Made by a program: the position numbers and the translations under genes. A stretch of DNA of 11,020 nt from an uncultured Clostridia bacterium (GTDB lineage: Bacteria > Bacillota > Clostridia > Oscillospirales > Ruminococcaceae): positions 1-11,020 of the forward strand of contig CAMDZU010000024.1 in NCBI GenBank assembly GCA_945910715.1, read 5' to 3'. The first letter of the stretch is position 1. Each line of letters opens with the position of its first letter. The notes beneath the pieces were generated by a model that worked only from the letters and a program-made list of their open reading frames with translations, had not been told where the DNA came from and ran no database searches. This document shows positions 1,988 through 11,020 of this stretch, piece by piece.

Positions 1988-3040
1988 TTAATAGAAAAAC
2001 AGAAAGCCTTCCCCCATCAGCAGGCAGAAAAAGACGAATAATACAAGAATAACCGTCCTTGCATATCTGCCTAAAAGGGAGAGTATGGGGTTTGTATCGC
2101 GGATTTTTTTCCAATTCACAATTGTCAGGAAGGGCACTATAAACATAGAAATCACTCCTGCGATTTTCCGCATAAGCTCCTTGCCGTCCTGAATGTTGTC
2201 AAAGAAAAGAAAGAAAATCAGCAGGTAAAAGGCAATGTATCCTGCCGCCGCAATGCCGTTCTTGACGCTGTTTTCCGACCGCATAAGGGGAAAGGCGCTC
2301 ATTATCCGCTTAAGGGTTATGGTGCCGTCAAGCGCTCCTCTTTTCGTTGCGTACAAAAGCTCCTCAGCATTCCCGAATCTGTTTTTCGGGTCAAGCTCCA
2401 TACATCTGCTTATGTATTTTTCAAAATAGCTTCCGCCCTCGTAATCGTCTGAACAGTGCCGCAGCATTTCCTTCCACACAGCCCCTATTGAATAAACGTC
2501 GGCGGTGGGCTTTGTCTGCTCAAAGCCGTATTGCTCGGGAGCGGTATAGCCCTCTGTTCCCATGACGGTAGTGTCCTTTGAAGCGGAGGGCTTGACCTCT
2601 CTTGCAATGCCGAAGTCAATCAGCTTTACATAGCCGTCCGTTGAAATAAGAATGTTGGAGGGGTTAATGTCACGGTGAACAATTCCCGCCTTGTGTATGG
2701 GAATGAGAATCTCACATATTGAATAAATTATTTCCTTTATTCTTTTTTCGGAAAGGTCGGTGCTGTCAAGAACCTTTTCCAGCGTTTCGCCGCTTATATA
2801 TTCCTCCGCAATATAGCATACTCCGCCGCCCATTTCCATTATATCGTACACCCTGGGAACGCCTTTGGGGGATTTTTCCTTAAGAAAGCGGTAAACAGAA
2901 ACCTGCTCAGGCATTATCTGCTTAAGGACAAGAATAACGCCGCTGTCCTTTTTTCTTGCAAGAAAGGTGGTTTTTCCGCTGTTAATGGGAGCAAGCCTTT
3001 CAAATTCCGCAAGCCTGCAGCTGTTAAACAATTCCGACAT
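1988..3040 (-). CDS. Membrane-anchored bacterial Ser/Thr protein kinase (Hanks-type), 350 aa
   Basis: A Hanks-type kinase fold is clear. There is an ATP-binding lysine in VLVLK (K40), the catalytic loop HRDINPSN (D124, N129), DFG (D142-G144) and TAPEQ in the activation/P+1 segment (166-170). The glycine-rich loop is degenerate (INSGKTTFLA), so nucleotide binding may be atypical, but the catalytic residues are present. The C-terminal 90 residues hold three hydrophobic segments (about 266-281, 293-309, 328-345). No PASTA or other extracellular sensor domain follows, so the kinase domain is cytoplasmic and tethered. I place the start at 3040, not at the in-frame ATG at 3052: GAGGT (3046-3050) is a ribosome site for 3040, whereas the promoter predicts a transcript start close to 3055, leaving no room for one before 3052. 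A divergent HTH gene shares the promoter region and is a candidate substrate. Confidence 0.9.
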   Translation of the reverse strand: MSELFNSCRLAEFERLAPINSGKTTFLARKKDSGVILVLKQIMPEQVSVYRFLKEKSPKGVPRVYDIMEMGGGVCYIAEEYISGETLEKVLDSTDLSEKRIKEIIYSICEILIPIHKAGIVHRDINPSNILISTDGYVKLIDFGIAREVKPSASKDTTVMGTEGYTAPEQYGFEQTKPTADVYSIGAVWKEMLRHCSDDYEGGSYFEKYISRCMELDPKNRFGNAEELLYATKRGALDGTITLKRIMSAFPLMRSENSVKNGIAAAGYIAFYLLIFFLFFDNIQDGKELMRKIAGVISMFIVPFLTIVNWKKIRDTNPILSLLGRYARTVILVLFVFFCLLMGEGFLFFY

Positions 3041-3061
3041 ATCATACCTCATTTCCCATAA

Positions 3062-3804: not shown

Positions 3805-3833
3805 TTGATTTTTATGTCGGATTATGGTAGAAT
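3805..3833 (+). promoter_or_regulatory. Promoter of the clpS-clpA-aat operon
   Basis: TTGATT (3805-3810) and TAGAAT (3828-3833) are 17 bp apart, with TG one base upstream of the -10 (extended -10, 3825-3826). The expected start near 3840 leaves a short leader of about 20 bases to the clpS ATG. No CtsR-like or HrcA-like operator is evident around it. Confidence 0.7.
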
Positions 3834-3858
3834 GGGAAAAAGAACAGGAGATGAAGCT

Positions 3859-4158
3859 ATGGCAACGAAAAATGCGGCAAAAGAGCGTTCCGAAAGCAGG
3901 ACTAAGGAGCCGAAGCATTACAATGTGATTATGCTTAACGATGATTTTACCACAATGGATTTCGTGGTTGAAATTCTTACGGATATTTTTCATAAGGACA
4001 GCGTGACCGCACAGGCGATTATGATGAGCGTTCATAAAAACGGTCGGGCTGTGGTGGGCATATACCCATACGATATTGCGGTAACAAAGGTGGGAGCCGC
4101 TCTTTCCCGTGCAAAATCGGAAGGCTTTCCTTTCAGAATGACGGTAGAGGAGGCGTAA
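3859..4158 (+). CDS. clpS: ATP-dependent Clp protease adaptor ClpS (N-recognin)
   Basis: This 99-residue protein has a flexible charged N-terminus (1-19) and the ClpS core from about residue 20. ClpS binds N-terminal Leu, Phe, Tyr or Trp of substrates and hands them to ClpA. Specificity residues are visible: the NDD motif (N27-D29), the gate methionine M33 in TTMDFV, and H59 in SVHKNG, matching N34/D35, M40 and H66 of the E. coli protein. The start at 3859 is chosen because AGGAG (3846-3850) is eight bases upstream and because the protein then has normal ClpS length. The same frame is open back to 3751, but that would add residues not seen in ClpS and begins upstream of the promoter. It is the first gene of an operon with clpA (gap 2 bp) and aat. 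A second adaptor class cannot be excluded, but the motifs are textbook. Confidence 0.95.
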   Translation: MATKNAAKERSESRTKEPKHYNVIMLNDDFTTMDFVVEILTDIFHKDSVTAQAIMMSVHKNGRAVVGIYPYDIAVTKVGAALSRAKSEGFPFRMTVEEA

Positions 4159-4160
4159 AA

Positions 4161-6395
4161 ATGGATTTTTCGGAGCAAGCGTTCAATGTGATAAATTCAG
4201 CCGTTCAATACGCAAAGGATAATAAATTCGAATATGTCACCCCTGAAATTCTTCTGCTGATGATGCTTGGGGACGAAACCTTTTCCCGAGCCTTTGAGGA
4301 ATGTGGCGGCAATATTTCCGTGCTTGCGGACAATCTGACGGTTTATATAAACGAATACGTTGAAAAAATGGACAGCGTTGAGCCGCAATTTTCCGCAGGA
4401 GTAAGAGATGTGCTGAACAATGCGGCGCAAAGCGCATATAACAGCAGCAGTAAAGAAGTCTGCATAAGGCATTTTGTTCACGCATTATGGAAGCTTGAAA
4501 ACAGCTATGCGGTTTATTTTATGGAAAAGCAGGGCGTAACCGAGGCGGACGTGCTTCGGGAAATCGCTTATACGGAGGACGAGGATTCATTTCCCGATAA
4601 TTGCGAAGAAAGCCTTTCGGAGAACAAGGAAGAACAGACAAAGGGCGCAGAAATGTACGCACCCTGTCTTAACGATACGCTGAATGACGTAAATCCCCTT
4701 ATAGGACGTGAAGCGGAGCTTGACAGGACAATACAGATTCTTTGCAGGAGAGATAAGAACAATCCTCTCCACATAGGGGAGCCGGGCGTAGGAAAAACAG
4801 CCATAACCTATGGATTGGTGCAGCTTATCAGGGATAACAAGGTTCCCGAGCCTCTTAAGGGAGCAAGGGTTTTCGCTCTTGATTTAGGGGGAATGCTGGC
4901 AGGAACCCAGTACAGAGGCGATTTTGAAAAGCGCTTCAAAAAGGTGCTTGCTGAAATCGGCAAAGAGGAAAAGCCCGTTATTTATATAGATGAAATACAT
5001 AATCTTGCAGGAGCGGGCGCAGTGGGAGAGGGCTCTCTTGACGCCTCGAATATGCTTAAGCCTTACCTTTCCGACGGGCATATACGCTTTATCGGAGCAA
5101 CCACCTTTGAGGAATACAAAAAGTATTTTGAGAAGAACAAAAGCCTTGTGAGAAGATTTCAGAACGTAGAAATAAAAGAGCCGGGCGAAGCCGAAGCTGT
5201 AAAAATACTGGAGGGTCTTAAAGCAAGGTATGAAAAATTTCACGGCGTAAAGTACTCAAAGGGCGTTATGGAGTATGCGGTGCAGATGAGCGCAAAGTAT
5301 ATAAACGAGCGCTTTCTCCCCGATAAAGCCATTGACCTTATAGACGAGGCGGGAGCTTACAGAAAGCTGCACCCAACCGATAAAAAGACTCAGACGGTGG
5401 ATAAATCGGTAATAAATACGGTGCTGACAACTATATGCCGAGTGCCTGCGGAATCGGTAAAAACCGAGGACGCGTCCGGACTTGCAAGCCTTGAAAAAAG
5501 GCTGAAAAGCAGGATTTTCGGTCAGGACGAGGCTGTAAGCAATGTTGTAAACGCAGTTAAATTTTCAAAGGCAGGTCTGCTTGAGGACAACAAGCCCCTT
5601 GCAAGTCTGCTGTTTGTAGGCCCCACAGGCGTGGGCAAAACCGAAATTGCAAAAAGTCTTGCAGAGGAGCTTGGAATAAAGCTTGTGAGATTTGATATGA
5701 GCGAATACGGCGAAAAGCACGCCGTTGCAAAGCTTATAGGCTCTCCCGCAGGCTATGTCGGCTATGAGGACGGAGGACTGCTGACAGAGAGCATAAGGAA
5801 AAACCCCTCCGCCGTATTGCTCCTTGACGAAATTGAAAAAGCCCACCCCGATATTTACAATATTCTGCTTCAGGTTATGGATTATGCGACCCTTACGGAC
5901 AATCAGGGCAGAAAAGCGGATTTCAGAAATGTTATCCTTATTATGACCTCCAACGCAGGGGCAAGCTTTCTCGGAAAAAGCAGCATAGGCTTCCGCAATA
6001 TAAACCGTGACGAAAGCGTGGTTATGGAGGCGGTTAAAAAGACATTTCAGCCCGAATTCCGCAACAGGCTGAACAAAATTGTTGTATTCAACAGCATGAG
6101 CGACTCTATGGCTGACTGCATTATAGAAAGAAAGCTTGGGGAGCTGTCCTCGCAGCTGCTTGCACGGAAAATCGAGTTTTCAGCCCACATCTCCGCAAAG
6201 GCGCTTATAAAGGAAAAAGGAATAAGCCGTGAATTCGGCGCAAGAGAGCTTGACCGTGTAATCCGAAACGAAATAAAGCCGCTGTTTGTGGATGAAATTC
6301 TTTTCGGCAGTCTGAAGCAGGGTGGCAGGCTTATTATTTCGGGCGAGGACGGAAGGTTCAGGGTCAGCGCAGAAAAGAACAGAGGAGAAAAGTAA
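4161..6395 (+). CDS. clpA: ATP-dependent Clp protease ATP-binding subunit ClpA
   Basis: This 744-residue double AAA+ unfoldase is close to the 758 residues of E. coli ClpA. It has the Clp N-domain (about 1-145, the ClpS docking part), an acidic linker (about 137-165), AAA1 with Walker A GEPGVGKT (206-213), Walker B VIYIDEIH (273-280) and an RR pair at 331-332. AAA2 has Walker A GPTGVGKT (487-494), Walker B LLLDEIEK (553-560) and sensor-2 GARELDR (693-699). No ClpB/ClpC middle coiled coil lies between or within the domains, which makes it ClpA rather than the ClpC usual in Firmicutes. The ClpP-docking loop reads IGF (609-611), so it should partner with a ClpP encoded elsewhere. GAGGAGG (4147-4153), inside the end of clpS, serves as ribosome site. 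The clpS stop is 2 bp before and aat starts 2 bp after, so all three are one transcript. Confidence 0.96.
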   Translation: MDFSEQAFNVINSAVQYAKDNKFEYVTPEILLLMMLGDETFSRAFEECGGNISVLADNLTVYINEYVEKMDSVEPQFSAGVRDVLNNAAQSAYNSSSKEVCIRHFVHALWKLENSYAVYFMEKQGVTEADVLREIAYTEDEDSFPDNCEESLSENKEEQTKGAEMYAPCLNDTLNDVNPLIGREAELDRTIQILCRRDKNNPLHIGEPGVGKTAITYGLVQLIRDNKVPEPLKGARVFALDLGGMLAGTQYRGDFEKRFKKVLAEIGKEEKPVIYIDEIHNLAGAGAVGEGSLDASNMLKPYLSDGHIRFIGATTFEEYKKYFEKNKSLVRRFQNVEIKEPGEAEAVKILEGLKARYEKFHGVKYSKGVMEYAVQMSAKYINERFLPDKAIDLIDEAGAYRKLHPTDKKTQTVDKSVINTVLTTICRVPAESVKTEDASGLASLEKRLKSRIFGQDEAVSNVVNAVKFSKAGLLEDNKPLASLLFVGPTGVGKTEIAKSLAEELGIKLVRFDMSEYGEKHAVAKLIGSPAGYVGYEDGGLLTESIRKNPSAVLLLDEIEKAHPDIYNILLQVMDYATLTDNQGRKADFRNVILIMTSNAGASFLGKSSIGFRNINRDESVVMEAVKKTFQPEFRNRLNKIVVFNSMSDSMADCIIERKLGELSSQLLARKIEFSAHISAKALIKEKGISREFGARELDRVIRNEIKPLFVDEILFGSLKQGGRLIISGEDGRFRVSAEKNRGEK

Positions 6396-6397
6396 CA

Positions 6398-7045
6398 ATG
6401 CCTGTTTTTGCACTGGACGAAAATGAAATTTATTTCCCCGACCCAACTCTCGCAGAGGAGGACGGACTTCTTGCGGTAGGGGGAGATTTGTCGGTGGAAA
6501 GGCTTGTCCTTGCCTACTGCAACGGGATTTTCCCCTGGTATAACGAGGGCGACCCTATAATGTGGTGGTGTCCAAGGGAAAGATTTATCATAAGACCCTC
6601 TCATATTCATATTTCCCATTCCATGGAGAAGTTTTTCAGAAAGCATAAGGCGGAAATACGTCTTAACAGGGATTTTGCGGACACAATGCACAGATGCAGA
6701 GCCAAAAGGGAAAAAGACGGAACGTGGATAACCGACCAAATGGAAAAGGCATATTTTGCCCTGCACCAAAATCATTTTGCCGTAAGCGTTGAAGCCTTCA
6801 TTGACGGAAAGCTTGGAGGCGGACTGTACGGAGTTTGTATCGGAAAATGCTTTTTCGGAGAGAGTATGTTTTCGGATATGGAAAACGGCTCAAAGGCGGC
6901 GCTTATCCTTTTTGCGAAGCTGCTTGAAGAAAAGGGCTTTCTGATGATTGACTGTCAGTTTCACACCGACCACCTTGAAAGCATGGGCGGCGAAACAATA
7001 AGCTGGGAGGAATACAGAAAGCTGCTTGATAAGGGGTGCAAATAA
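6398..7045 (+). CDS. aat: Leucyl/phenylalanyl-tRNA--protein transferase
   Basis: Aat takes Leu or Phe from its tRNA and attaches it to proteins that begin with Lys or Arg, creating an N-degron for ClpS. The 215 residues contain the family signatures in order: FPDPTLAEEDGLLAVGGDLS (13-32), GIFPWYNEGDPIMWWCPRER (43-62), the TWITDQM block, GGLYGVCIGKCFFGESMFS (141-159) and MIDCQ (183-187). E155 and Q187 match the catalytically important E156 and Q188 of the E. coli enzyme. The protein is about 20 residues shorter than the E. coli one (234) because its C-terminus stops soon after the last conserved block. GAGGAG (6382-6387) lies about ten bases before the ATG, and the clpA stop is 2 bp upstream. 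The enzyme is best known from Proteobacteria and is uncommon in Firmicutes, so its place in this operon deserves attention. Confidence 0.95.
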   Translation: MPVFALDENEIYFPDPTLAEEDGLLAVGGDLSVERLVLAYCNGIFPWYNEGDPIMWWCPRERFIIRPSHIHISHSMEKFFRKHKAEIRLNRDFADTMHRCRAKREKDGTWITDQMEKAYFALHQNHFAVSVEAFIDGKLGGGLYGVCIGKCFFGESMFSDMENGSKAALILFAKLLEEKGFLMIDCQFHTDHLESMGGETISWEEYRKLLDKGCK

Positions 7046-7165
7046 TTTTGTGCCGGAGGGCATATTTTTTGCCTTCAGAATTACACCCCGCTGTTTTCCC
7101 TCCGTTTCACTTATATACTATTATATTGGTAAGGATATACCGCCCGATTTAAACGGAACATAAGC

Positions 7166-7200
7166 AAACCGCCTGAACGCACTGTTCAAGCGGTTTTGTC
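7166..7200 (+). terminator. Terminator of the clpS-clpA-aat operon
   Basis: AAACCGC and TGAAC (7166-7178) pair with GTTCA and GCGGTTT (7184-7196), giving 12 bp with one C/A mismatch and a 5-base loop. TTTTGTCTTAACTT runs from the stem. It lies about 120 bases after the aat stop. Confidence 0.75.
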
Positions 7201-7230: not shown

Positions 7231-7267
7231 AAGGCATAAAAATAAAGCCTGACCAAAATCGGGCTTT
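7231..7267 (-). terminator. Terminator of the GH32 gene
   Basis: Bases 7244-7252 and 7259-7267 form a nine-pair stem (one T/G), reading AAAGCCCGA and TCAGGCTTT on the minus strand, then ATTTTTATG. It lies about 120 bases past the GH32 stop, facing the plus-strand terminator. Confidence 0.7.
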
Positions 7268-7389
7268 CTGCGAGCCGAGGCACTCGGCTGTAAGCGTCGA
7301 ACAAAATAGATTTTTCTAACCCCTTAATTATTTCAGCGACCAACCAAAATCGTTATGATATATCTTCAATTATACCATAACCCTCACCA

Positions 7390-8682
7390 TCAAGTATCTT
7401 CTTCCTCCGTATCGTCCATAACATACAGCTCGGCATTTCCTATAACCTTGCCTGAAAGGTCGTAAACTGCATTTGTGATGACATACTCGCCGCCGTTTAC
7501 GAAAACCTCAATCATATTTCCGTCAACATAAGCTTCAATTTCCGCACCGCCGTTCAGCACGGGAGTTTCAGATATATTCAGCAGTTCCTTGTGATTTCTG
7601 ATAACGGCGGTTCTGTCGGCAATTATTCTGCCGTTTTCTTTTCGGATAATATAGCCGCCTATGTCCAGCTGTTCGCCCTCGGAAAGACTTGCCTTTACCA
7701 TATAAATTCCGCTTGGCGAGGTCGTCCTTCGGGTGAATTTCGCCTGTATATCGGGGTGAGGACGGAAGAAGATGTGACCGTCCTTTACCTCGCAGACACG
7801 GGGAATACTGAACATTCCGATCGTGTTGTTATCCATAGGCTCGGGCATTCGCAGCCACGCCACAACTATCCGCCTGCCGTCCTTGTCGGTGGTGCTTTGT
7901 GGCGCATATAAATCCAGCCCGTAATCAAGGAACTGAAACTCGCTGCCGATTTTCATAGAGCAGCTCTGCTCATCAAAATCAACCAGCGTGCAGACCGCCT
8001 GATTTCCGTCTTTTGTTCCCATAGGCGAAAAAATCAGCACATCAGAGCCGTCAACACGAAAATAATCGGGGCATTCCCACATCCAGCCGTAGCCCTCGGC
8101 AGTGGCATAATTCACATAGTCCCAATGAACAAGGTCGGCGCTTTTGTAAAACAGCAAGCGTCCCTGTTTCTCAACTGTGCTGCCCAAAACCAAGTAGTAA
8201 TTTCCGTCGCTTCCGCGCCAAACCTTCGGGTCACGGGTGTGATTTTTGTCGCCGATTTTTGTATCGGTAATCGGTGGAATAACCGTGGTTTTTCCCTCAA
8301 AATTATCGAAGCTGTAACCGTCCTCGGAGGAGATGTGAAGCTGCGCTGCGGTGAATTTGTCATTAAGACAGCAGTTGGTGTTTTCAGGGTCGGGAACGTC
8401 GTATCTTACACCGGTATAAAGCAGGTGCATATTTCCGTCCTTTTCGACAGCGCTGCCCGAAAAGCAGCCGTCCATATCATCTGTTTTGGTAGGGAACAGC
8501 GCTATGTCAAGATGCTTCCAGTTCATAAGGTCGCTGCTGACAGCGTGACCCCAGTGCATTCTGCCCCATCTCGGAGCATAGGGGAAATGCTGATAAAAAA
8601 GGTGGTATTCGCCGTTGTAGTAAATAAAGCCGTTGGGGTCGTTTATCCAGCCCCTTGGTGATTTTAAGTGTATCTCTTTCAT
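7390..8682 (-). CDS. Intracellular GH32 beta-fructofuranosidase / sucrose-6-phosphate hydrolase-type enzyme, 430 aa
   Basis: The enzyme cleaves terminal fructose from sucrose, sucrose phosphate or short fructans. GH32 landmarks are intact: WINDPNG (nucleophile D15), the FSGS block (74-77), RDPK (transition-state stabiliser D151) and ECPDYF (acid/base E203). A beta-sandwich C-terminal domain follows (about 320-430) containing IEVFVNGGEYVIT. There is no signal peptide, so it acts in the cytoplasm. The start at 8682 is set by GAGGAGG (8691-8697) eight bases upstream and by the protein beginning MKEIHLKSPRGWINDPNG, as usual. The same frame is open upstream to 8757, but that part overlaps an ABC-transporter remnant in another frame. 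The former neighbours (substrate-binding protein and ATPase pieces) suggest uptake of unphosphorylated sugar by an ABC importer, so sucrose or short fructans is a better guess than sucrose-6-phosphate. With those genes broken and a terminator-like hairpin upstream, its present promoter is unclear. Confidence 0.93.
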   Translation of the reverse strand: MKEIHLKSPRGWINDPNGFIYYNGEYHLFYQHFPYAPRWGRMHWGHAVSSDLMNWKHLDIALFPTKTDDMDGCFSGSAVEKDGNMHLLYTGVRYDVPDPENTNCCLNDKFTAAQLHISSEDGYSFDNFEGKTTVIPPITDTKIGDKNHTRDPKVWRGSDGNYYLVLGSTVEKQGRLLFYKSADLVHWDYVNYATAEGYGWMWECPDYFRVDGSDVLIFSPMGTKDGNQAVCTLVDFDEQSCSMKIGSEFQFLDYGLDLYAPQSTTDKDGRRIVVAWLRMPEPMDNNTIGMFSIPRVCEVKDGHIFFRPHPDIQAKFTRRTTSPSGIYMVKASLSEGEQLDIGGYIIRKENGRIIADRTAVIRNHKELLNISETPVLNGGAEIEAYVDGNMIEVFVNGGEYVITNAVYDLSGKVIGNAELYVMDDTEEEDT

Positions 8683-8695
8683 TCTGTTCTCCTCC

Positions 8696-8760
8696 TCAGA
8701 AAAGACATTCTTCAGTTTTCTTGTCAAAGAAATGCAGCTTTGATGGCATAAATACAAACT
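8696..8760 (-). pseudogene. 3' remnant of a sugar ABC transporter ATPase (UgpC/MsmK/MsmX type)
   Basis: On the minus strand, immediately before the GH32 ribosome site, a short frame reads EFVFMPSKLHFFDKKTEECL, then F and TGA (8696-8698). The pattern hydrophobic-x-x-x-K-hydrophobic-H-hydrophobic-FDKxTE is the characteristic last beta strand and tail of the carbohydrate-importer ATPases of this family. The ATPase body (Walker A, LSGGQ, Walker B; more than 340 residues) is absent. The frame does not match the substrate-binding remnant, which stops at TAG (8761-8763). The two are joined with no spacer, as expected for a deletion that removed the permeases and most of the ATPase. The assignment rests on about 21 residues. 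Confidence 0.6.
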
Positions 8761-9200
8761 CTATTTGTCGTTAATCGTTCCCTGTTCGATTATGGAGTCG
8801 AGGTAGATTCCCTTTTCCTCCTCGGTAAGCTCCGCAAGGGGCTGTATAATGCCGTTTGCCGCATACGCCGCAACGTCAGGACCGTCCACCGTAAGAACAT
8901 GGGGAAGATTTCCCGACAGTACCGAAGCATTAACCTTGTCGGAATATCCGCCGCCGCTGTCGTTTCGGGGGATAAACTCCACATCGGCAAAATACTTGCC
9001 GTTGTAATGCTCGTTGAAGCTGCTGACCGATTTGAGATAAGCCTGACCCTCGGGAGTTTCCTCGATAATATGTACCCACAGGCTGATGTATTGTTCTCCC
9101 TCGTCATAGCCCTCTATATCACCGTGCTGACTGTTCGGCTGCACCCGGACAGCATTGTTATACAGACTGCCGCTCCGGGGCAGCGCTGAAAAGCCTGATA
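8761..9200 (-). pseudogene. Broken sugar ABC transporter substrate-binding lipoprotein
   Basis: Residues encoded at 8761-9138 read like the N-terminal lobe of a family 1 sugar-binding protein: EGEQYISLWVHIIEETPEGQ, then FNEHYNGKYFADVEFIPRND, then LSGNLPHVLTVDGPDVAAYA and a stop at GTINDK. Full proteins are about 400-550 residues and continue after this point; here TAG (8761-8763) ends it. Upstream, AAVCITMLSGCS (lipobox, cysteine codon 9141-9143) is the end of a lipoprotein signal peptide but lies in a different frame from the mature part, so one base has been gained or two lost near 9138-9141. Before AAVCITM, no Met-Lys signal start is found within the open stretch. A GTG at 9144 keeps the mature frame open but has no ribosome site. 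The gene is thus damaged at the 5' end, in frame and at the 3' end, and cannot make a working transporter component. Confidence 0.75.
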
Positions 9201-9291: not shown

Positions 9292-9507
9292 TCAATGAAT
9301 GTCGGTCACTTGATAGCCCTGTTCTTCAACCGCCTGCTTCAGAACATCATCGGAAATCTCTTTTTCCAGTGTTACAACCGCGGTTCCGGTCGTGTGGCTT
9401 ACTTCTGCGGATTTTACGCCTTCAAGGGCTTCAAGAGCCTTCTTTGTGTGCATTTCACAATGCTCACACATCATACCTTCAATTTTCATAGTCTTAGTTA
9501 ATGTCAT
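9292..9507 (-). CDS. Putative free CopZ-like copper chaperone from an internal start within copA
   Basis: Inside copA, AAAAGGAGA (minus strand, 9516-9524) stands nine bases before an in-frame ATG at 9507. Translation from there gives a 71-residue protein that is exactly one HMA domain: [17 protein letters not shown], a helix ([18 protein letters not shown]), [15 protein letters not shown] and [16 protein letters not shown]. This is the size and fold of CopZ, which delivers Cu(I) to CopA. The ribosome site encodes EKEKK in the pump, so it is hidden in the linker. Whether a separate protein is made is not proven; the alternative is that the site is a relic of two formerly separate genes now fused. 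In E. coli a CopZ-like product is made from copA by ribosomal frameshifting, so a second product from copA has precedent by another mechanism. Confidence 0.45.
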
Positions 9508-11020
9508 AGTCTTTTTCTCCTTTTCGGTTTTGGTTTTATTACTTATTTTACGATCCCCTTTGGAATCGTGAAGCCTGAAGAAATTTAAGCGCAGCGAATT
9601 TGTAACTACGCAAAAGCTGGACAAACTCATTGCAGCCGCAGCAAACATAGGATTAAGCTGCCAGCCAAGTATGCTTATAAAAACGCCTGCTGCAAGAGGA
9701 ATACCGATAATGTTGTAGATAAACGCCCAGAACAGATTTTCGTGAATGTTCCGAAGCGCTGCACGGCTAAGTCGGATTGCCGCAGGAACATCGGATAAGC
9801 AGCTTTTCATCAGTACCACGTCTGCTGCGTCAATTGCAACATCAGCGCCTGCACCGATAGCAATTCCTATATCGGCGCTTGTCAGCGCAGGAGCGTCGTT
9901 TACGCCGTCCCCGACCATAATAACCTTACCTTGCTGCTGCATTTTGCGGATTACGCTTTCCTTGCCGTCGGGAAGTACGCCTGCAATTACCTCGTCAACT
10001 CCTGCCTTAGCGCCTATTGCCTTTGCTGTCCGCTCATTATCGCCTGTCAGCATAACAACCTGTATGCCCATATTCCGCATTTCCCTGATTGCCGCCGGGC
10101 TGTCCTCCTTTATAACGTCGGCAACAGCGATAATACCGTAAAGCTCGCCTCCGCAGCTAAAAAACAGCGGAGTTTTACCCTCTTTTGCAAGCTGCTCCGA
10201 CCTTTCCTTTATCTCCTTCGGCACAGCTGTCTGTTCGCTTATAAACTTATAGCTGCCGCCGTAAAGGGAAGCGCCTTTTACGGCTGCAGTAAGGCCGCTG
10301 CCGGGTAAAGCCTTGAAATTCTCGGCTTCGACTGCTGTAAGACCCTGCTGCTCCGCTTCCCGGTTGATTGCCCGTGCAAGAGGGTGCTCGCTTTTCTTCT
10401 CCAGCGCATAAGCAATCGACAAAAGCTCTGTTTCGCTTCTTGCGCCTACGGGAATAATATCCGTAACCTTCGGCTCTCCTTTAGTTATCGTTCCGGTCTT
10501 ATCAAGAGCCACAATCTGTGCTTTTCTCGTTTCCTCAAGGGATACCGCAGTTTTAAAGAGGATTCCGTTTCTTGCGCCAATTCCGCTGCCAACCATAATA
10601 GCTACGGGAGTTGCAAGACCCAGCGCACAGGGACAGCTTATTACAAGAACGGATATGCCCCGTGCCAAAGCGAAGCCCACCGTCTGACCCACGAGAAGCC
10701 ATACGATTACGGTTAACACCGCAATTATTATAACAGCAGGCACAAATACCCCAGATACCTTATCTGCAATTTTCGCAATGGGCGCTTTTGTTGCTGCTGC
10801 GTCGCTTACCATCTGAATAATCTGCGAAAGCGTGGTGTCCTCGCCAACCCTTGTGGCCTCACAGCGGATAAAGCCCGATTGATTCAGCGTTCCTGCGGAA
10901 ACTGTGCTTCCAACCGATTTGTCAACAGGAATGCTCTCCCCCGTAAGAGTAGATTCATCTACCGCACTGCTTCCCTCTAAAACGGCTCCGTCCACAGGTA
11001 TATTTTCTCCCGGACGAACC
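9292..11020 (-). CDS. copA: Copper-exporting P1B-type ATPase with C-terminal CopZ-like HMA domain (5' part outside window)
   Basis: The frame runs off the right edge; 575 residues are visible. CopA pumps Cu(I) out of the cytoplasm. Visible in order: the actuator end with TGES; two membrane segments, the second carrying the Cu(I)-binding [22 protein letters not shown] (phosphorylated Asp); EKKSEHPLA (HP motif of the nucleotide domain); [20 protein letters not shown]; and the last two helices with [10 protein letters not shown] and AMSLSS, both typical of the Cu(I) class. After [10 protein letters not shown] a Lys-rich linker (about 25 residues) leads to a heavy-metal-associated domain, [20 protein letters not shown], with metal ligands CEHC. 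HMA domains are usually N-terminal in CopA; a C-terminal one in the same frame is a fusion of copA with copZ. A strong internal ribosome site at 9516-9524 sits in the linker (see separate entry). Any N-terminal HMA domain and TM1-4 lie outside the window. Confidence 0.93.

Follow-up and report, generated by a model that had tools for sequence, protein, structure and literature searches.

Organization of the clpS-clpA-aat gene block

We analyzed a stretch of 11,020 nucleotides (hereafter, the window) from an uncultured Clostridia bacterium; it is the entire 11 kb contig C24 (CAMDZU010000024.1) of a 68%-complete metagenome-assembled genome of 323 contigs (G000, GCA_945910715.1). The open reading frame (ORF) calls placed three genes on the forward strand: clpS (3859..4158, ATG start, 99 amino acids), encoding an N-degron adaptor; clpA (4161..6395, 744 amino acids), encoding a two-ring AAA+ unfoldase; and aat (6398..7045, 215 amino acids), encoding a leucyl/phenylalanyl-tRNA--protein transferase. 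The three ORFs are co-directional and both gaps between them are 2 bases, in agreement with a preliminary description of this DNA, which had reported a compact operon.

The first protein matched the Pfam family PF02617 at 107.6 bits (cut-off, 23), and its 10 relatives of solved structure were all ClpS adaptors, two of these entries being named yljA. Residues N27, D28, D29, M33, and H59 are present; on the basis of E. coli work, we take them to be the NDD motif, the Met gate, and the His of the N-degron pocket. For the clpA product, a solved ClpA structure, presumably that of E. coli, was matched at 657.6 bits, compared with 519.6 bits at most for ClpC chains. TIGR02639 was the best model, and every other NCBIfam model scored far lower. 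Two Walker A/B pairs and an IGF loop are present; Gly610-Phe611 belong to this IGF/IGL loop, which is presumed to be the ClpP loop, the roles of these residues being taken over from the E. coli proteins. These sequence comparisons identify the middle gene product as ClpA rather than ClpC. The third protein exceeded the cut-offs of both PF03588 (Leu_Phe_trans; 227.4 bits against 22.7) and the NCBIfam equivalog TIGR00667 (174.1 against 143.55), and its three solved relatives were all leucyl/phenylalanyl-tRNA--protein transferases (E = 1.2e-52). It contains E155, D185, and Q187, which we assume from E. coli work to be the catalytic Glu, Asp, and Gln.

The key residues of all three proteins had been described as intact, and an alignment confirmed this. 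It comprised 49 rows: the window, 46 loci of relatives with linked genes, and two genomes of the same family in which the genes are unlinked (G303 and G491). The ClpS pocket residues, both Walker A lysines, both Walker B Asp-Glu pairs, and Gly610-Phe611 of ClpA, and the three Aat residues were invariant throughout. By role, the same key residues are presumably found in E. coli ClpS, ClpA, and Aat.

A likely sigma-A-type promoter with an extended -10 element lies at 3805..3833 on the forward strand (TTGATT, 17 nt, TGG-TAGAAT). The site alone is at chance level, as 15 promoter-quality matches were found in the window against 15.3 expected from shuffles. It gains weight because the hexamers, the 17-nt spacer length, and the TGn are all kept in two loci of relatives, L002 and L004. 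DNA similarity to the window starts at 3803 in L002 and 3800 in L004 and stops close to where aat ends, at 7016 and 7014, respectively; the flanks beyond this promoter-to-aat block had no match at that place in either locus. When the printed upstream stretches of the other 44 linked loci were inspected by eye, most showed no alignable copy of the promoter; conservation of the site is limited to the nearest relatives. A single extended -10 promoter had been proposed, and one likely site was found. The arrangement suggests that clpS, clpA, and aat are likely co-transcribed from this single upstream promoter. A possible terminator hairpin followed by a T run, recognized by consensus match only, is located 3' of aat (7049..7064, forward strand).

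Recurrence and rarity of the gene order

A scan with an Aat alignment, using one genome per species, revealed at least 578 relatives. The best 80 loci (L002-L081), with Aat identities of 64-81%, were analyzed; as the best of at least 578, they represent close relatives and not independent lineages. Record titles assigned 78 of the 80 to Clostridia-type organisms, including Butyrivibrio, Ruminococcus, Lachnospiraceae, and Oscillospiraceae, many from rumen or gut sources; L050 and L074 were titled only "uncultured bacterium". In 51 of the 80 loci, aat was directly 3' of clpA and in the same orientation, with a clpA-aat gap of approximately 9 bases at the median (range, -23 to 134; approximate, alignment-based values). 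Of these, 46 contained all three genes in close company, with clpA immediately preceding aat, whereas in the remaining 5 of the 51 clpS was not seen and clpA starts at the contig end. Butyrivibrio, Ruminococcus flavefaciens FD-1, and other Clostridia among these loci share the same-strand clpS-clpA-aat order of the window, whose flanks differ from theirs and have counterparts only for a copper-type ATPase and a weak kinase match.

These results indicate that the clpS-clpA-aat order is a recurrent clostridial arrangement of canonical parts and is not unique. The linkage had been put forward as novel; as an arrangement it is not, because 51 of the 80 best loci have aat immediately after clpA. 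The preliminary description had itself considered that the linkage might be common and already described in Clostridia. It is common in this set, but no description of a clpS-clpA-aat operon in Clostridia appeared among the open-licence literature matches listed (titles and abstract starts). Nor is aat an oddity of a single assembly, since a 93% identical Aat is encoded in a record named Ruminiclostridium sp.

E. coli has the same three protein families, and clpS is directly before clpA, as here. In E. coli MG1655, however, clpS and clpA are on the forward strand and aat is on the reverse strand, approximately 1.2 kb from clpA and beyond serW and infA, whereas in the window aat comes third in the operon; the genes had been called nearby but separate in E. 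coli, which is correct. Clostridium thermocellum, a Clostridia genome, is reported to encode ClpA and ClpS and also ClpC (PMC12203970), resembling the present genome in this combination; the part of that source seen here contains no mention of Aat or gene linkage, Aat not being among the terms looked up. In the parts of other sources seen, S. mutans and B. subtilis are stated to have no obvious ClpS (PMC5742171), and a jumbo phage has ClpA and ClpS with gene numbers far apart (PMC6102473).

The loci without the common order were of several kinds. In L055 and L058, clpS and clpA were downstream of aat. ClpA was absent from the locus in 27 of the 80, 8 of which have under 7 kb of upstream sequence; in one of the 27 (L014) ClpS was on the other strand. 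No partner gene common to the unlinked aat copies was seen, the largest cluster limited to unlinked loci comprising 5 loci. In all, clpA was not directly before aat in 29 of the 80 loci, which is what chance co-location of the genes, or their being decaying relics, has in its favor. We consider this explanation extremely improbable: 51 loci have clpA directly before aat with a short median gap, the frames are open, and the motifs are invariant. Chance linkage in particular was ruled out by the recurrence.

The genes are rare in broader samples. In an even draw from the phylum, Aat was above the cut-off in 1 of 398 genomes (own genome included; a second match did not reach it) and ClpS in 2 of 398 (own included), so that most Firmicutes sampled in this draw have neither Aat nor ClpS. 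In the order draw, the own genome was the only one of 197 with Aat. In the family draw, Aat was found in 4 of 396 genomes and ClpS in 8 of 396; as their totals agree, the two draws were treated as one set of 396 genomes. Neither protein was present in the seven same-genus genomes that these draws listed. The claim that most Firmicutes use ClpC without Aat holds as far as the rarity of Aat is concerned (1 of 398), and the window's own assembly also has a ClpC-like protein. At least 578 relatives, set against such rare draws, fits a concentration in some lineages. The distribution within the family is patchy and reflects gain or repeated loss.

A more divergent ClpS (56-58 bits) was observed in two further genomes of the family with one genus code (G324, contig C19, and G397, contig C89), neither of which is among the family-draw genomes with Aat. 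In G324, the one of the two that the corresponding search covered, the neighboring gene product is a divergent ClpA-like protein (50% identity).

Pathway context and inheritance of the three genes

The source assembly has ClpP on contig C152 (280 bits), adjoined by ORFs read as tig and clpX, and a second, weaker ClpP-family match on contig C66 (78 bits). Contig C191 of the assembly encodes a ClpC-like protein that has Clp_N and a UVR motif; therefore, ClpA would supplement ClpC. The best named relatives of the trigger factor, encoded on another contig of the assembly, were mostly Ruminiclostridium, Ruminococcaceae/Oscillospiraceae, and Eubacterium records, which bears out the Firmicute host that had been supposed.

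With the three gene products, their order, and these partners considered together, we regard it as highly probable that the operon constitutes a complete bacterial (Leu/Phe) N-degron branch (ClpS/ClpAP/Aat) beside a ClpC-like unfoldase. Co-transcription, activity, and substrates are inferred from the pathway as it is known in E. coli. On that model, a single promoter 5' of clpS would transcribe all three genes. Aat would take Leu or Phe from charged tRNA and attach it to proteins starting with a secondary destabilizing residue, for example Lys or Arg. ClpS would bind the N-terminal Leu or Phe so made, as well as natural Phe, Leu, Trp, and Tyr ends, and would hand the bound protein to ClpA, which would unfold it into ClpP encoded elsewhere in the genome. 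The module may be an accessory set that works beside a ClpC-like unfoldase and is retained in a minority of Clostridia, with many of the carriers coming from gut or rumen. The pathway probably functions as the preliminary description proposed. An operon that is rare but recurrent in gut and rumen Clostridia offers a simple system, with the tagging enzyme, the adaptor, and the unfoldase as a unit. It raises the question of why a few Clostridia keep an N-degron branch, and comparison of close relatives with and without the operon could show the purpose of the pathway in such bacteria.

Pairwise distances of the three proteins correlated across the 47 linked rows, window included (ClpA-Aat, 0.69; ClpS-ClpA, 0.79; ClpS-Aat, 0.62), and 0 of 5000 permutations gave values as high. 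Several observations weigh against the reading of the operon as a complete N-degron branch. These correlations may be caused solely by shared species history. The linkage is not required, as seen in the 29 loci without clpA directly before aat. G381 (locus L145) has clpS-clpA, and aat was not found in it. Among NCBIfam equivalogs, the best score of the ClpS protein was 96.4 against a cut-off of 112, and none of nine narrow ClpS models was passed; the name ClpS was nevertheless kept because the protein matches the Pfam family and has the motif and because its gene precedes clpA. The clpA product scored 981.3 against the TIGR02639 cut-off of 993.15, approximately 1% short.

As a separate observation on L145, an ORF that appears nitroreductase-like by eye follows clpA in the place of aat, and G381 has the genus code of a linked genome, G528.

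The preliminary description had raised the question of whether the three proteins moved together. Their distances are correlated in the linked loci, but in G303 and G491, where aat is on a contig other than that of clpS-clpA, the proteins have different nearest kin: ClpA is nearest to L047 and L023, and Aat to L017 and L011, respectively. Thus, aat can be uncoupled from clpSA, and the pathway is patchy.

Horizontal exchange of the operon as a cassette, recently gained by this lineage, is possible, although we lean against it. It would account for the patchiness in the family draw (Aat, 4 of 396; ClpS, 8 of 396) and for the different nearest kin of clpSA and aat in G303 and G491. The family's copies also fail one-clade tests: a single clade was rejected by the approximately unbiased (AU) test for ClpA (6 rows versus 48, AU 4.9e-60) and for Aat (4 rows versus 38 of the 78 others, AU 0.00019; 42 of 82 Aat rows used). 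However, these narrow tests may be unfair, as most other rows carry no family assignment. In a broader test, 15 Oscillospiraceae-type and 18 Lachnospiraceae ClpA rows could be held apart with no loss of likelihood (AU 0.562); these sets were picked after the trees had been seen, and most of the 15 rows have no assigned family. Repeated loss also explains the patchiness, and an empty site was not seen in a whole-window DNA search that covered one same-genus genome besides the own. Transfer between families, first suggested by the family-only clade tests and then weakened by the broader test, is unproven by these sequence comparisons.

Vehicles for such exchange received no support from plasmid, phage, or viral-contig records. 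The 38 plasmid records and 6 phage records that matched were all below 60% identity, with no close copy, and none of 14 pattern matches in viral contigs was a relative.

A wider and still more tentative view, which we rate as doubtful, would regard the operon as a self-contained cassette with its own promoter that gut and rumen Clostridia gain and lose in one piece, that gives a few lineages a second, adaptor-driven route of protein destruction beside ClpC, and in which aat is the swappable part.

Contig assignment and flanking genes

The window is one whole contig of an incomplete assembly, and its origin bears on the assignment of the operon to this species. If C24 were misbinned, the operon would be a real one of another Clostridia species and the species of G000 would be without it. 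The seven same-genus genomes without Aat and ClpS would agree with this, as would the small size of the contig within a 68%-complete assembly of 323 contigs. Moreover, the whole window was compared with one same-genus genome, G067, which gave partial matches only (66-72%), and C24 ranks third lowest of 27 G000 contigs for tetranucleotide fit.

We nevertheless consider misbinning unlikely. The GC content of C24 is 0.458 against a mean of 0.463 (standard deviation, 0.017), and its mean tetranucleotide correlation to 26 other G000 contigs (of 322) is 0.798, compared with 0.740 or less to single stretches of 20 other genomes; both values lie in the range of the assembly. This evidence is partly circular, since binners use composition. 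Repeats shared within the assembly point in the same direction. An intergenic hairpin of 29 bases 3' of aat (7166-7197) also occurs on contig C4 and in 0 of 20 relatives with up to 3 mismatches allowed, and a further 47-base stretch (7244-7290) recurs at 91% on contig C254, the region of this repeat giving only weak matches (E 0.001 to 0.1) in 7 of 30 relatives. The same-genus genome G159 shares three 22-mers with the window and C4 shares eleven, which weakens this binning evidence. C24 is likely correctly binned; composition and shared repeats support this and do not prove it.

Downstream of the operon, three ORFs are on the reverse strand. A GH32 hydrolase gene (7393-8757) directly follows a 127-residue ORF (8764-9144) with similarity to the beginning of a solute-binding protein (21.9 bits to PF01547, short of the cut-off of 26). 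A deletion or an assembly join is suggested at this junction because the stretches matching the two in G201 are approximately 3.7 kb apart. The third (9295-11019) encodes a copper-type heavy-metal P-type ATPase whose C-terminal end carries an HMA domain, in the manner of a CopA-CopZ fusion. Upstream of the operon, also on the reverse strand, is a gene (1991-3052) for a Ser/Thr protein kinase whose C-terminal part is hydrophobic. A perfect TTGACA-16-TATAAT match was observed at 3089-3062, ending 9 bases before the first ATG of the kinase.

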